Position numbers and translations under genes: made by a program
Notes under the pieces: generated by a model
The model's input: only the letters and a program-made list of their open reading frames with translations
The model's database searches: none
What the model was told of the DNA's origin: nothing
Shown: positions 30,501-63,727 of the stretch, piece after piece
How the letters are laid out: each line of letters starts with the position of its first letter
How positions within the stretch are numbered: the stretch's first letter is position 1
NCBI GenBank assembly: GCA_022843225.1
Contig: JALHOC010000008.1
Span: forward strand, 1 to 64,000
Length of the DNA: 64,000 nt
Reading direction: 5' to 3'
Origin: Hyphomonadaceae bacterium
GTDB lineage: Bacteria; Pseudomonadota; Alphaproteobacteria; Caulobacterales; Aquidulcibacteraceae

Positions 30501-31409
30501 ATGGACCCGGTTGATCACAGGCGCGCCGCACAGGCCTTGGGGCGGGACGATTGGCCCGAGCCGTCGCCGCACGAACCGCCCTTCATGCTGATCGAGCCCT
30601 TGCACCGGACCGCGCCGCTGATCTTCGCCTCGCCGCATTCGGGTCGGCGTTACCCTGCGGAATTGTTGGCGGAAGCGCGCGTCGGGCTCATGAGCCTGCG
30701 GCGCTCGGAAGACGCCTATGTCGATGAATTGTTCGCGGGCGCCGCCGCACATGGCGCGGCGGTGCTGTCGGCGACGATCGCGCGCGCTTTCGTGGACCTC
30801 AATCGTAACGCCGCCGATCTCGACCCCGAAATGTTCGAGGAGCATACGCCCCGGCGCGGGGCGCAAACCTCCGCTCATGTTCAAGCCGGTTTAGGCGCTA
30901 TTCCAAGGGTTTCCGGCGACGGGCAATCGATCTATCGGCGTAAGCTTTCGCTCTGCGAGGCCGAACGCCGGATCGCGGACGTGCATCGGCCCTACCACGA
31001 GATGCTCTCCAATTTGATCGCTGAAACGCAAGCGCTGTTCGGCTGCGCGGTGCTGATTGATTGCCACTCGATGCCATCGAGCGCGCGCGGCGCACATGCG
31101 CCTGACATCGTGCTGGGCGATCGATTTGGCGCCGCCTGCCACCCCTCCGTTACAGCGCTGGCGGAGGCGACCTTGCGCCGCCTCGGCTATCGCGTGGCGC
31201 GCAACACGCCGTTCGCGGGCGGTCACACCACACAGGCCTATGGCCGCCCAACCCAGCGCACCCACGCCCTGCAGATCGAGATCAGCCGGGCGCTCTACAT
31301 GGATGAGCACACCCTCGAGCGCGCGCGTGGCTTTGACCGTGTGCGCGCCGATATGGGCCGGCTGGCCGAAGCCCTCGCCGCGGCCGCCCTGCACAAGAGC
31401 CTCGCCTAG
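30501..31409 (+). CDS. N-formylglutamate amidohydrolase family
   Basis: PLIFASPHSGRRYP, ARAFVDLNRNAADLDPEMF, IDCHSMPS, QALQIEISRALYMDE-type motifs. Confidence 0.9.
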   Translation: MDPVDHRRAAQALGRDDWPEPSPHEPPFMLIEPLHRTAPLIFASPHSGRRYPAELLAEARVGLMSLRRSEDAYVDELFAGAAAHGAAVLSATIARAFVDLNRNAADLDPEMFEEHTPRRGAQTSAHVQAGLGAIPRVSGDGQSIYRRKLSLCEAERRIADVHRPYHEMLSNLIAETQALFGCAVLIDCHSMPSSARGAHAPDIVLGDRFGAACHPSVTALAEATLRRLGYRVARNTPFAGGHTTQAYGRPTQRTHALQIEISRALYMDEHTLERARGFDRVRADMGRLAEALAAAALHKSLA

Positions 31410-31415
31410 CCCAAG

Positions 31416-31445
31416 AAAAAACCGCCGGGCTTTGGGGCCCGGCGG
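31416..31445 (-). terminator. Strong intrinsic terminator on the minus strand
   Basis: CCGCCGGGC-TTTGGG-GCCCGGCGG 9-bp stem; TTTTTT follows on the minus strand (AAAAAA at 31416-31421). Confidence 0.85.
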
Positions 31446-31481
31446 CGAAGGTCAATTAGGGAGGAAACGCCCAAAAGGGCG
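31416..31481 (-). ncRNA. suhB/MmgR (alpha-r8)-type sRNA candidate
   Basis: Minus strand reads CGCCC-TTTT-GGGCG hairpin, single-stranded TTTCCTCCCT, short linker, GC-rich terminator hairpin with T6; 5' end approximate. Confidence 0.75.
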
Positions 31482-31737
31482 GGAGCGACGTCGCGAAACG
31501 CCGCAACACGTCAAAGCTAGTTTGCAGCGCAGCAATTTGCAAGCGCACAGATACCTAGTCGCCCCACGAAAAATCTTAAAATCATGTTTTTATTGTATTT
31601 TATGCGCCGCCATGCTATTACGCAGGTGCACAAATCCAATTCCGCATGGGCAGCGCACAAAGATTCTCCAGACTTGCCGTTGAAGCAGGCGGTCAACGCG
31701 GGCAGAACCCGCCCCTCCTCCGAAGAAAGCCCCTGAA

Positions 31738-56898: not shown

Positions 56899-56985
56899 GC
56901 CCGGATGGCGGAATTGGTAGACGCACCAGCTTCAGGTGCTGGCGCTCGCAAGGGCGTGGAGGTTCGAGTCCTCTTCCGGGCACCA
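56899..56985 (+). tRNA. tRNA-Leu(CAG)
   Basis: GCCCGGATGGCGGAATTGGTAGACGCACCAGCTTCAGGTGCTGG...GGAGGTTCGAGTCCTCTTCCGGGCACCA. Confidence 0.97.
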
Positions 56986-57172: not shown

Positions 57173-58384
57173 ATGAAGCTTTCCGACGCGAAATGCAGAA
57201 ACGCGCGGCCGAAAGAACGGCCTTACAAACTCGCGGACGGGCACGGTCTTTACTTGCTCGTGGGCGCGCACGGATCGCGCTTGTGGCGTCTCGATTATCG
57301 GTTTGATGGCAAGCGTCTGACGATGGCAATCGGCGCCTATCCAGACACAACGCTTGCCGACGCGCGCGAGGCGCGCGATGCCGCGAGAAAACATCTCCGC
57401 GATGGCCGCGATCCGATGGAGGAACGCAAAGTCTCGCGCACCGTGGCGCGCGTTGCGAGGGCGACGACGTTCGGACTCGTGGCTGATGAACTGCTCGCCA
57501 AATTGACGCGCGAGGGCAAGGCCGAGGTTACGATCGCAAAAAGGCGCTGGCTGTTACACGACCTTGGCGCTCCTCTGTGCACACGTCCCGTGGCGGCAAT
57601 CACGCCAGCGGAGGTTCTTGCACTCCTGCGCGAGGTGGAATCGAAAGGCCATTTGGAGACCGCCCGCCGGCTGCGCGCCGCAATCGGCCAAGTGATGCGG
57701 TTAGCAGTGGCGACCAATCGCGCCACAATGGATCCAACGTCTGCCCTTCGCGGCGCCATTGCATCACCGGTCGTAAAGCATCGCGCCGCGATCACCGATC
57801 CCAAGGGCGCTGGAAAATTGATGCTTGCCGTCCAAAGCTATGACCGGCCAGTCGTGCGCGCCGCTATGTTGATCATGGCTTATTGCTTTCCACGCCCGGG
57901 AGAGTGCCGGCTGGCGCGCTGGAATGACGTCGACTTCACCGCAAAGATCTGGACCATTCCAGCCGAGCGAACCAAAATGCGGCGCGAGCACAAAATCCCG
58001 CTCTCGCGTCAAGCATTAGCGACCTTTCAGGCGCTTCATGATCTTACTGGCCACGACGAAGAGAATCTTTGTTTTCCAGGACAGCGGGCGATGGACCGTC
58101 CGATCAGTGAGAATACCATCTGCGTCGCCTTAAGGACCCTCGGATTTCCAAAAGAGGAAATGAGCGCGCACGGATTCCGAGCGCTCGCCTCCACCCTTCT
58201 CCATGAGACGTCAAAGTTCTCGTCTGAAACGATCGAACGCGCGCTGGCGCATCAGGATCACGACGCCGTCCGGCGCGCCTATGCGCGGGGTCAGCATTGG
58301 GCGGATCGTATTCGGCTCATGCAATGGTGGGCCGATCGTTTGGATAAGCTGCGAGACGAAGCGCTAACGCAATTTCCGCCCTGA
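57173..58384 (+). CDS. Tyrosine recombinase / P4-type integrase (DUF4102 arm-binding domain)
   Basis: KLSDAKCRNARPKERPYKLADGHGLYLLVGAHGSRLWRLDYRFDGKRLTMAIGAYPDTTLADAREARDAARKHLRDGRDP; RPGECRLARWNDVDF, HGFRALASTLLHE, ALAHQDHDAVRRAYARG. Confidence 0.96.
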   Translation: MKLSDAKCRNARPKERPYKLADGHGLYLLVGAHGSRLWRLDYRFDGKRLTMAIGAYPDTTLADAREARDAARKHLRDGRDPMEERKVSRTVARVARATTFGLVADELLAKLTREGKAEVTIAKRRWLLHDLGAPLCTRPVAAITPAEVLALLREVESKGHLETARRLRAAIGQVMRLAVATNRATMDPTSALRGAIASPVVKHRAAITDPKGAGKLMLAVQSYDRPVVRAAMLIMAYCFPRPGECRLARWNDVDFTAKIWTIPAERTKMRREHKIPLSRQALATFQALHDLTGHDEENLCFPGQRAMDRPISENTICVALRTLGFPKEEMSAHGFRALASTLLHETSKFSSETIERALAHQDHDAVRRAYARGQHWADRIRLMQWWADRLDKLRDEALTQFPP

Positions 58385-59043: not shown

Positions 59044-60813
59044 TCAGCGATCCAAGCCGAGAGACGGCGTCGTTTTGACTTTGCCGTTCGTGATCGAGAG
59101 CGAATAGGCCTTCCCCTGCTTCAACAAGGGCGAGCGCGTAACGCGCAACAAGGCCACGCCATCATTGCGCTCAAGCATCGCGAACCTGCCCTGGTGAAGC
59201 TGAACGAAGCCGCGCACGCGCCACTCGCGCTCCAACCCGTCGCCGATGTTGATCACTCTTTTCCCTGTCGCGCGCGTCAGTGCCTTTTCGGCGCTTGACA
59301 ATTCAGACGCGCGAAGACGATCCAACGCGCCTTGATTGAACTCAAAGTGACCGGTGAGGTCCCGGCCACCGTGCCCCTCTCTTTGATGCCAACCGATCCG
59401 CGCGGTGATGGCGTTGCGGACCTCTCGTATGTTTGGCAGGCGCGGCGCCTCGCCCGCGAGCTGGCGGACGATTTCACGATCAAGCTCGGTCTCGGCGGGC
59501 GCCTCGATCTGCGTGGCGAGCGGCGTTTCGGAAAGCCGGTCGATCTTAACTCGGGTTCCCGCGCCCTCATGGACTTTCGGTTCGATTGCAACGAGCGCGC
59601 CCGGCACCAAACCTGCGCCATCGCGCTCACGCACATTGGCGAGCACCGGGCGCTTCATGCCGTCGAGCACAATCACGTAGCCCTTGCCCGCCTCGCCGCG
59701 TCTGCCAGATTCCAGTACGGGGCCGGCTAGACGCCCCATTGAAGGGTCGTAGAGTTTGAGCCGGCCCTGGCCTGGCTCAAGTTCGCGTCCGAGGCGGCGG
59801 CGAAGATCGATGTCCTTGCCGATCTCCTCAAGGCGGGCTGCCCAGTCGTGATCGAGACGGAAGCGATCGCGCTTCTCCTCTCGTCCCAGCCCCATGCGGG
59901 CCAACTCGCGAACGCGGTTTCGAAGCGCCGCTCTGAGCGTGGGCTCAAGCGTGCGCCCGATCGACTGAATGCGATGCACCTTGCCGGGCTTCAGTTCGGC
60001 CGCCAGCAGCTGATCGAGCCGCGTAGACCGCTCGGCGCGCGTCTCGCGATCAAGCGCCAACCGTTCGTCATCGCGCCCGCGATCGCCCAGCATTTGCGTG
60101 GCCACTTCCCGCGCCGCGTGCCGGAGCCCCCACGTCGCGTACTCCCGTGGGATAATGAGATCTGGTCCGTCGCGCCTGCGGCCGCGCAGGATCACATGGA
60201 CATGCGGGTTGTCGGTGTTGTGGTGATCGACCGCCACCCATTCCAAGGGCATGCCGAGATCGCGCTCCATCTGCGCCATCGTCGCACGCGTGAAGTCCTT
60301 CAGATCCTCGATGCGGGCGCCGCTCTCTGGCGCGAGCATGAGGCGCATGTGGCGCTTGTCCTCGGCCGCCCATTCCGCCAAACGCGGCGCTGCCTCGGCG
60401 CGATCCTGCTCTTGGTCATAGAACTGGCCCCGCTCTCCTTCCGGACCGGCCCCATCGCGTTCGAGATACTTGCCGTGTGCGATCAGCTTGGCTGCGCCAC
60501 TGCCGCCGTGGCCCTGATAGAACACAGTCACTACGACGCGCTGGCGCTTGTCTTGCGCGAATGAGGCGTTTGCGCCGCCTGCGCGAAGGCGTCCACCGGG
60601 CCGGCGGCCTGACAGCAGCTTGGATAGTTGTCCGCCGAGCGCGCCGCTGCGTACGCGGCCGCGTAGTGATCGCGTCTTCTGGACTTTGCCGGTGAGCGCA
60701 TCTTCCTCGCGAAACACAGCCATGTCGCGCACCGCTGCGAGCGCGTGCGCCACATCGTTTGGACGCACCAGCGCCGACGTCTTCAAGCGCTCAGATAGTG
60801 ATGCCTTGGCCAT
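59044..60813 (-). CDS. Relaxase/mobilisation nuclease with DUF3363 domain (VirD2-like)
   Basis: HMRLMLAPESGARIEDLKDFTRATMAQMERDLGMPLEWVAVDHHNTDNPHVHVILRGR with HxH histidine motif; long C-terminal DUF3363. Confidence 0.92.
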   Translation of the reverse strand: MAKASLSERLKTSALVRPNDVAHALAAVRDMAVFREEDALTGKVQKTRSLRGRVRSGALGGQLSKLLSGRRPGGRLRAGGANASFAQDKRQRVVVTVFYQGHGGSGAAKLIAHGKYLERDGAGPEGERGQFYDQEQDRAEAAPRLAEWAAEDKRHMRLMLAPESGARIEDLKDFTRATMAQMERDLGMPLEWVAVDHHNTDNPHVHVILRGRRRDGPDLIIPREYATWGLRHAAREVATQMLGDRGRDDERLALDRETRAERSTRLDQLLAAELKPGKVHRIQSIGRTLEPTLRAALRNRVRELARMGLGREEKRDRFRLDHDWAARLEEIGKDIDLRRRLGRELEPGQGRLKLYDPSMGRLAGPVLESGRRGEAGKGYVIVLDGMKRPVLANVRERDGAGLVPGALVAIEPKVHEGAGTRVKIDRLSETPLATQIEAPAETELDREIVRQLAGEAPRLPNIREVRNAITARIGWHQREGHGGRDLTGHFEFNQGALDRLRASELSSAEKALTRATGKRVINIGDGLEREWRVRGFVQLHQGRFAMLERNDGVALLRVTRSPLLKQGKAYSLSITNGKVKTTPSLGLDR

Positions 60814-61054: not shown

Positions 61055-61567
61055 TCAGAGCGGACGCCAGACGCCTTCGATCAAATCGACGGCGATCGGT
61101 CCCCAATAACGCCCGTCAAACGAGTCTGGGCTATCGCCAAGCAGGAGAATTTCGGAAGGCGCGAGTGTGCGGCACCCGACCCATCCTTGCGGTGCGCCGG
61201 GTCGATTCTGCACCGCCGCAACTGTGACGCCATCAACGCTGAGCATGCGTCCATCACTGCACACGTGCTGACCTGCGGCTGCGGCTAGCCGTTTGATGAA
61301 ACGGTCTCCCTCGTCGTCGTAATGGTGCGCGGCGGCTTCGATCGGAGCGACATCGCGGGCGCGCACGGTGACGAACATCCCCCGAGCAGGATCACCCGAC
61401 TCTCGAATGTAGAAGCCGACCGGCACAGATGGACTGTGATTGAACAGCACTACATCTGCTTGTGCGCCGCTCAGAACGAGCGCAGCCAACGCCAAACCGG
61501 CGCCGCCTATCAAGAAGGGATATGTCTTCGAACGCACCACTGCAGTCAAACGCACGCGCGCATTCAC
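61055..61567 (-). CDS. TraF-like S26 family signal peptidase
   Basis: FNHSPSVPVGFYIRE, DRFIKRLAAAAGQ, LLLGDSPDSFDGRYWGPI. Confidence 0.9.
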   Translation of the reverse strand: MNARVRLTAVVRSKTYPFLIGGAGLALAALVLSGAQADVVLFNHSPSVPVGFYIRESGDPARGMFVTVRARDVAPIEAAAHHYDDEGDRFIKRLAAAAGQHVCSDGRMLSVDGVTVAAVQNRPGAPQGWVGCRTLAPSEILLLGDSPDSFDGRYWGPIAVDLIEGVWRPL

Positions 61568-61593: not shown

Positions 61594-61697
61594 GGGCGGG
61601 TCTCGCGATAGGGATGGAAGCCCGAAGGGCCGAGACCCTCTGGGCTCGGTGCGAAGCACGACAGCCCTGCCCGGCGGCGAAGCTGACGGGATCGCCC
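61594..61697 (+). other. Structured intergenic element: three contiguous hairpins with possible enclosing stem
   Basis: GCCC-GAA-GGGC (61620-61630), CCGAG-a-CCC-TCT-GGG-CTCGG (61630-61649), GTGC-GAA-GCAC (61649-61659); possible outer pairing GGGCG 61594-61598 with CGCCC 61693-61697. Confidence 0.65.
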
Positions 61698-61900
61698 TTA
61701 CAATCAAAAAACGAAAATGCGGCGCCTTGCTGCAAAAACACCGCGCGGACGGACTTCACCGCCTCTCGTGATCTAAGCAAGCGTCGGCTTGGGACGTCGC
61801 CACGTTTGGTCGCCGGCGCCAAGCGCTGGCCTTTCAAGCGTTGTCCCAGCATTTCATTGCGACCACGGAACTTTATGCTATCTAGAGTTGACGAACTGCA

Positions 61901-63430
61901 ATGGGGGCGTTCATGCCGGGGCTGCATGGGTACTACACCGAGGTTCTCGGGCTAGATCTCGCCGACATCCAATACATCGACGATGACGTTGTCTTCGCTA
62001 GGCTCGAAGATGACAGCATCTACGAACTGGCGTTCGGCGACCCGGTTATGGACGTGCAGTCCGCGAGCGGTCGAACGTCGTTCAAGATCATTGGCGGGCG
62101 CTATCACGGCCGCAAAGCTTCGATCAAAGGCGAGCTCTCACTGCGCGATGAAGGCGTCCTGCGCCTATCGATGATCGACGTACAGCAGGGCGACGGCCTC
62201 ATCCTCGACACCCCGGACGGCAATCTCATCACCATCGACGGCGGGGATAATCAGCTGTTCGCCCGCCACATAGCGGCGCGGTTTGCCGGGACCAGTAAGC
62301 AAAAGCCGCTCGAAGTCGACGCCATGATTGTGACGCACGGCGACGCCGATCACTTCGGCGGCCTCTCCGACATCGAAGCATCCGAACGCGACAAGCGGGC
62401 GGAGAAACGCATCTTCATTCATCCTACGCGTGTCTATCACAACGGCCTCGTCAAACGGCCGGCGAAGACAGCGGACGGCGAAACGCGCAAACAAACCGAG
62501 ATGCTGGGGACCGCCAAAAAAGTTGGCGACGACCACTACATCACTGGACTCGTCGATGACCCGCGCAAGGTCGCGGAGGCAGAGCGTAACAAGCCGTTCA
62601 AGACCTGGACTAAGACCCTCGACAAATGGGATGCCCGCCGGCAGGCGCTTGGGCTCGATCCGATCGAGCTTGCGCGCATCGACCAGGATTCAGGCGATGC
62701 CTTCGACTTCGTCTCCGACGCCACATTTGAGATCTTTGGACCGATCACAGAAAAGCAAGGCGCAAAGCCTGCGCTCGTGTTCCTGCGCGAGCCCGATAAG
62801 AACGTCGACATGCACCTAGGCGGCCCGGACGCTCCGCGCGGGAGCGCATCGGCGTCGCACACGATCAACGGACATTCGATCTCGCTAAGGCTGACCTACG
62901 GCAACGTGCGCTTCCTCTTCACCGGCGACCTGAATCAGGAGGCGATGGCCCGGGTGAAAACGGCCCTCCCCGACTTCGACCTCAAAGCCGAGATCTTCAA
63001 GACGCCCCACCATGGCTCCGCCGACTTCGACTTCAACTTCGTGAAGGAGACTTCACCGGTCGTTTCGATCATCTCATCGGGCGATGAGAGCCGAGCCAAG
63101 GAATACATCCACCCGCGGGCAACTTTGGTCTCTGCGCTCGGCCGCTGCTCGCGCGGCGATACCGGCATCATCTTCATGACGGAGCTTGCAGCGTTCTTTG
63201 CGACGCGCGGCTACGCCAAGGAAACGGACCCGGGTTCGGCCGCGGAGAAGGACGAGTTCTACGCCTTCGAGCGCATCAATTACGGCATCATCCATATTCG
63301 CACCGACGGCGAACGCGTCGTCGCGCTCACGCACAGTGGCAAGCGCGGCATGAACGAGGCTTACGGCTTCACGGTAGCTGCAAACGGCAAAGTAAAAATG
63401 ACGCCGAAACTGAAGGTCAAGAAGGGCTGA
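61901..63430 (+). CDS. Stand-alone ComEC/Rec2-like metallo-beta-lactamase-fold hydrolase
   Basis: LSMIDVQQGDGLILDTPDGNLITIDGG, MIVTHGDADHFGG (HxxxDH), FLFTGDLNQEA, EIFKTPHHGSADFD; no competence TM domain. Confidence 0.85.
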   Translation: MGAFMPGLHGYYTEVLGLDLADIQYIDDDVVFARLEDDSIYELAFGDPVMDVQSASGRTSFKIIGGRYHGRKASIKGELSLRDEGVLRLSMIDVQQGDGLILDTPDGNLITIDGGDNQLFARHIAARFAGTSKQKPLEVDAMIVTHGDADHFGGLSDIEASERDKRAEKRIFIHPTRVYHNGLVKRPAKTADGETRKQTEMLGTAKKVGDDHYITGLVDDPRKVAEAERNKPFKTWTKTLDKWDARRQALGLDPIELARIDQDSGDAFDFVSDATFEIFGPITEKQGAKPALVFLREPDKNVDMHLGGPDAPRGSASASHTINGHSISLRLTYGNVRFLFTGDLNQEAMARVKTALPDFDLKAEIFKTPHHGSADFDFNFVKETSPVVSIISSGDESRAKEYIHPRATLVSALGRCSRGDTGIIFMTELAAFFATRGYAKETDPGSAAEKDEFYAFERINYGIIHIRTDGERVVALTHSGKRGMNEAYGFTVAANGKVKMTPKLKVKKG

Positions 63431-63439
63431 GTATGATTC

Positions 63440-63727
63440 ATGACTTTACTGCTGGCCGGCTTCTATGTCGGCGCGGTCGACCACCTTGCTAACCCGGAAG
63501 GCTCAACGGCGCCCGCTGTTTATGCGGAAGTCGCGGCCAACCTTTGGCAGGCGCTCGGGTCGCCCGAGAGGGAAATAACATTTAATACCGAAGGCTCTTT
63601 CGATATCGGCGTTTCGCTCTTCGTCGTCTCCCTCGGTATCTACTTCCTGTTGAACGGCGCATTCGGGTTCACCGCCCTGATCGGCGGCGCCGTCAAAGAA
63701 GCCGAGACCGCCCAGGCCAACCTTTAA
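63440..63727 (+). CDS. Small membrane protein, partner of the MBL gene
   Basis: 95 aa; hydrophobic FDIGVSLFVVSLGIYFLLNGAFGFTALIGGAV; starts 10 bp after the MBL stop. Confidence 0.65.
   Translation: MTLLLAGFYVGAVDHLANPEGSTAPAVYAEVAANLWQALGSPEREITFNTEGSFDIGVSLFVVSLGIYFLLNGAFGFTALIGGAVKEAETAQANL

Follow-up and report, generated by a model that had tools for sequence, protein, structure and literature searches.

The gene at 61901..63430 (+) of the window, by which is meant the whole 64,000-nucleotide stretch of DNA analysed, encodes a 509-aa protein that is, as judged from its sequence and that of its relatives, a soluble and intact accessory MBL of the ComEC lineage, real, well conserved and encoded by a single gene. 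The favoured reading, to which a probability of roughly 55% is assigned, is that the gene on its own specifies a cytoplasmic nuclease or phosphodiesterase that depends on metal and moves horizontally as an accessory, and that the 95-aa open reading frame next to it is no component of the system. This reading draws on directly observed features, namely the architecture of the protein, the conservation of its motifs, its solitary context, its gain and loss as a single gene and its horizontal spread.

Gene call and sequence identity

The first-pass annotation had described a 509-aa ComEC-like MBL followed by a reading frame of 95 aa, and both are present. Relatives from Hyphomonas and Steroidobacter (L006 and L008) align to the MBL only from residue 5, a methionine, so the true start is probably the ATG at 61913, which would give a protein of 505 aa. 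No sigma-70-type promoter was found upstream of the gene and no significant Rfam element near it. Elsewhere in the window, positions 31407-31487 match the suhB/mmgR small RNA family of Rfam.

The 509-aa protein matches Lactamase_B in Pfam (E=2.3e-10) and the ComEC/Rec2 model TIGR00361 (4e-13, 48.4 bits), the latter in the MBL part only and far under its cut-off; membership of TIGR00361 takes both a membrane competence domain and an MBL domain and a score of >190 bits, and this protein has no hydrophobic segments. A match to the Avs1a model NF041809 (7e-15, 54.6 bits) falls short of the curated cut-off of 420 bits, and a 6A-MBL model and the PADLOC models for LmuA, DRT MBL and Avs1a are likewise matched below cut-off. 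The family as a whole is described by none of the Pfam, NCBIfam and PADLOC models scanned. Among solved structures, the MBL domain of Moorella ComEC (9ic4) comes nearest, both by sequence (6.5e-19) and by fold (Foldseek, 1.3e-11); weaker fold matches include other phosphodiesterases, among them a cAMP-bound MBL, and the viral structure library holds no significant match to the model.

Hydropathy over 19 residues reaches just 0.95 in the protein, which has neither a competence membrane domain nor a signal peptide or membrane segment. This finding bears out the earlier statements that the competence membrane domain is lacking and that this is not a DNA-uptake gene. A role in uptake could still be imagined if the protein acted in trans as the nuclease replacing a missing MBL domain of the host ComEC, and the ComEC of the genome bin (a 743-aa frame at contig C1:102087, L059) does match the membrane domain only, with neither HxDxDH nor other MBL metal motifs in its C-terminal region. 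Such a role is nevertheless highly improbable given a protein with no signal peptide or membrane segment, relatives that start directly at the N-terminal SH3-like domain, and a location on mobile or single-gene loci, even a distant member being present in just 1 of the 100 other genomes of the relatives search.

Domain architecture and structural model

The protein opens with a domain of six short strands at residues ~22-80 (61964..62140, +; pLDDT mostly >90). The metal-binding motif HGDADH follows at residues 146-151 (62336..62353, +); its residues H146, D148, D150 and H151 do not vary among 18 relatives. Next comes a family-specific insertion at residues ~165-265 (62393..62695, +), delimited by alignment, modelled with pLDDT ~80-93 and carrying (H/Q)NG at 180-182, and then a second variable loop at residues ~283-320 (62747..62860, +), placed where Avs1a-type nucleases have gating insertion 2. 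The catalytic motifs GDLN (342-345) and PHHGS (369-373) lie at 62924..63019 (+). The N-terminal domain and the 165-265 insertion, both of which the first-pass annotation had pointed out, are real and recur throughout the family.

In the broader alignment of 18 members, the HxDxDH, GD, HHGS and HP motifs of the ComEC-type MBL core are invariant or nearly so, and the metal-site motifs are kept in all 18 relatives at identities down to 24%. Beyond the metal site, the alignment shows two further family-specific motifs, (H/Q)NG in the insertion and SSGD...HPR. The solitary SH3-MBL family is defined here by an SH3-like N-domain, a ComEC-type MBL, an (H/Q)NG insertion and SSGD...HPR, all of which the window protein has.

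The AlphaFold model is of moderate quality only (mean pLDDT 75, pTM 0.79). It comprises a confident six-strand N-domain, the MBL core and an ordered insertion (~165-265), and it is weak at residues 297-322 and over much of 393-460, the catalytic C-terminal half being poor. Four relatives have N-domains with weak matches to the bacterial SH3 families SH3_3, SH3_4 or SH3_16, at E values of 0.0008 to 0.05 that miss the cut-offs, and the N-domain of the window protein itself matches no SH3 family; from the model and these relatives we infer, with support, that the domain is SH3-like.

Genomic setting on the tRNA-Leu island

The gene lies on an island integrated at a tRNA-Leu (CAG) gene (56899..56985, +). 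To its left, beyond the tRNA gene, are a tyrosine integrase (57173..58384, +), a DUF3363-family relaxase (59044..60813, -) and a TraF-like S26 signal peptidase (61055..61567, -); to its right are DUF6876, SSB, Toprim, ArdC and ParB-like genes. No right attachment repeat was found before the contig end at 74596, and no convincing flanking repeats or att site surround the MBL cargo. Another contig of the same bin (C42) carries a second lepA and a sister island at the same tRNA-Leu site, which is 89% identical over 3.2 kb from integrase to relaxase and then diverges, and the MBL was not seen in the part of it that was examined. The MBL thus sits in the variable part of the island, in keeping with the cargo position on a mobilisable island that had been proposed for it. 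The two lepA copies, on contigs C8 and C42, encode proteins that are 91% identical; after each come a tRNA-Leu and an integrase, and the two integrases are 98% identical. The bin is probably a mixture of two related organisms with sister islands at the same site.

A conserved element of ~100 nt at 61605..61712 (-) precedes the traF-like gene by 38 bp. Plasmid records with matches to it number 278 (IncN, Xanthomonas, Pseudomonas and Burkholderia), and in these it is unannotated and often multi-copy. The plasmid copies adjoin genes of leading-region type (ssb, TrfB-like, ParB and DUF932). Although it lies here in the island of an alphaproteobacterium, it presumably resembles the CUP leading-region element described for pKM101, an IncN plasmid, and it belongs to the island backbone rather than to the MBL.

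The adjacent 95-aa reading frame

The 95-aa frame (63440..63727, +) begins 9 nt after the MBL stop codon on the same strand. Its GC content by codon position (0.62/0.44/0.72) is coding-like and it has a single hydrophobic segment near residues 53-76, predicted to span the membrane. These features speak for a two-gene effector, as proposed earlier, with the small membrane protein as anchor or sensor of the MBL, or else as its neutraliser. That proposal is now very hard to sustain. The 95-aa protein is absent at every locus of an MBL relative that was examined, including all 10 close relatives (46-57% identity) and the wider loci, which is the very outcome that had been named in advance as speaking against the pair. 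Across 11 MBL-carrying genomes or records, nothing better than E=0.03 was found; plasmids, phages, viral contigs and the genomes of 100 relatives gave no match, and 384 other alphaproteobacteria gave two weak partial matches only (best E=0.002), so that a convincing homologue is missing from all these collections, including the 484 other alphaproteobacterial genomes. The chance of an equally long and equally close frame is ~8.5% in composition-matched random sequences, so its adjacency is not rare. The 95-aa frame is, on this comparative evidence, an orphan and an island-specific neighbour, outside the conserved family and not a component of the MBL, and a false two-gene system drops off the candidate list.

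Distribution and gene neighbourhoods

When 84,980 species genomes were searched by pattern, nine relatives at 46-57% identity emerged, from Novosphingobium, Sphingopyxis, Hyphomonas, Steroidobacter, a Bacteroidota MAG and others, and a tenth close relative lies on a Rhizobium plasmid. Of 399 Proteobacteria, 8 have a member by the family profile, a count that includes the window's genome, and the close clade is rarer than this family-wide figure. Scans of IMG/VR found no family member in viral contigs; a viral or phage origin was set aside on this basis, the lone phage match having 22% coverage.

In the phylogenetic tree the SH3-MBLs form one group, separate from the Avs1a-type nucleases and the Bacillus MBLs (support 93/91), in a topology with several long branches and uncertain deep joins. 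The Bacteroidota and Steroidobacter proteins are nested among those of alphaproteobacteria, a placement that argues for horizontal spread; the family is patchy, rare and horizontally moving. In Sphingopyxis, 5 of 80 genomes have a second, distant SH3-MBL of 542-552 aa beside a QueF-like gene, and it too is solitary (L062-L066).

At most loci the gene stands alone or beside unrelated, non-conserved neighbours. It had been argued that a location mainly in core housekeeping loci would count against the proposed pair, and the surroundings are indeed mostly chromosomal housekeeping genes; the relatives lie among these, however, as sporadic single-gene insertions and are not core genes themselves. 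In Sphingopyxis, 4 of 80 genomes carry the MBL next to parE, with an outer-membrane-type gene on its other side, and the copy in one carrier is frameshifted. The two flanking genes are directly adjacent in all 15 of the non-carriers checked. Such clean empty sites point to gain or loss of a single gene.

Two loci, picked out after the fact, place the MBL in an operon with a secreted nuclease. On the Rhizobium plasmid (L015, 6714-10305) the order on one strand is DUF3616, MBL, S1/P1 nuclease, with the MBL 40 bp upstream of the S1/P1 gene, and at a second locus (L077, 6912-9420) the MBL lies 34 bp upstream of an RNase T2 gene on the same strand. A recognisable defence gene occurs beside the MBL at one locus only (L079), where an IS-truncated relative adjoins a 1188-aa SIR2 protein matching ThsA, LmuA and Dsr1 profiles; there is thus no enrichment in defence islands. 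HerA (DUF853) adjoins the MBL in two genomes (L057 and L075) and was set aside as a conserved partner, since DUF853 is a widespread chromosomal gene.

Functional interpretation

For catalysis, substrate and biological role we infer the following. The product would be a two-domain enzyme, consisting of a small SH3-like N-domain and an MBL core of ComEC lineage; this core would bind divalent metal and break phosphodiester bonds, DNA or RNA being the most likely substrate. The N-domain and the insertion after HxDxDH probably set the specificity for substrate or trigger, or restrain the active site. The gene travels between bacteria as one-gene accessory cargo, acquired here by the mobilisable tRNA-Leu island. 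Its likeliest role would be to interfere with nucleic acid that is incoming or damaged, in accessory defence or competition, and the protein is probably an anti-mobile-element accessory. The link to nucleic acid comes from the S1/P1 and RNase T2 operons, the SIR2 neighbour and the profile similarity to Avs1.

The MBL fold is promiscuous and also occurs in hydrolases of cyclic nucleotides, lipids and other substrates. The protein could therefore act on something other than nucleic acid, for example as a cyclic-nucleotide, lipid or metabolite phosphodiesterase in a housekeeping-like accessory role, as would suit a solitary gene found mostly among metabolic and housekeeping genes, with other phosphodiesterases among its weaker fold matches. 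This possibility deserves some weight but is unlikely, as nucleases or DNA-uptake MBLs come nearest to it in both sequence and fold, and two nuclease-encoding operons occur among the family's loci. A more specific proposal, put forward as speculative and rather doubtful, is that this hitherto unnamed family is a stand-alone, protease-free version of the Avs1, Lamassu and Hachiman pro-nucleases. It would be a single-gene nuclease directed against mobile elements, with its own SH3-like domain and insertion serving to sense infection and to gate the active site.

Comparison with known systems

The MBL domain of ComEC/Rec2 (Moorella 9ic4) shares with the window protein a common core and the motifs DVxQGD, HxDxDH, GD, HHGS and HP. 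The window protein differs in having no membrane domain, so that it would be cytoplasmic, and in adding the SH3-like N-domain, an insertion of ~100 residues and a C-terminal extension. The stand-alone secreted ComEC-like MBL of Bacillus and Aneurinibacillus, encoded next to DUF3006, is likewise solitary and outside a competence protein; the Bacillus-type protein (L092) differs in having a lipoprotein-like signal at its start, a different partner gene, and neither the family insertion nor the SH3-like N-domain.

ComEC-like MBLs have recently been shown to be recurrently recruited as pro-nucleases of several defence systems. HamM, Avs1a and CanC are MBL pro-nucleases with two gating insertions that are cut by a partner trypsin-like or caspase protease, and for HamM and CanC, relatives of the Avs1 MBL, cleavage or activated DNase action has been shown (PMC12799240). 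The profile similarity between the window MBL and the Avs1 MBL nucleases (hhalign 99.4%) points clearly to common descent of their MBL cores. Avs1a, the LmuA-associated MBL, HamM and CanC (PMC12799240), protease-activated pro-nucleases of the Avs1, Lamassu, Hachiman and Canu systems, belong to the same MBL lineage. They share the HN(G/S) motif that follows the first metal loop and have insertions at the same two positions as the window family, one following the HN(G/S) strand and the other preceding the NG(H/S)S strand. Unlike the window family, these enzymes have no N-terminal SH3 domain and do have a protease neighbour, and they fall in a separate tree group.

The shared lineage and insertion positions, together with the poorly modelled residues 297-322, raise the prospect that the window protein itself belongs with the gated pro-nucleases HamM, Avs1a, LmuA and CanC, and that it is activated when its insertions are cut out by a protease, either a phage enzyme or one with its gene elsewhere. 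This is distinctly unlikely. The model shows insertion 1 as ordered, insertion 2 is short in most members, no invariant Ile lies within the insertions, and no trypsin- or caspase-family gene is present on the window island or was recognised next to relatives. The ordered first insertion, the short second one and the absence of an adjacent protease favour a self-contained enzyme, in which any regulation would come from its own N-domain and insertion. A solitary, mobile branch with the same gate positions and no protease would reveal how such enzymes are restrained without a partner, and the SH3-MBLs could represent either an ancestral or a self-regulated form of the gated pro-nucleases.
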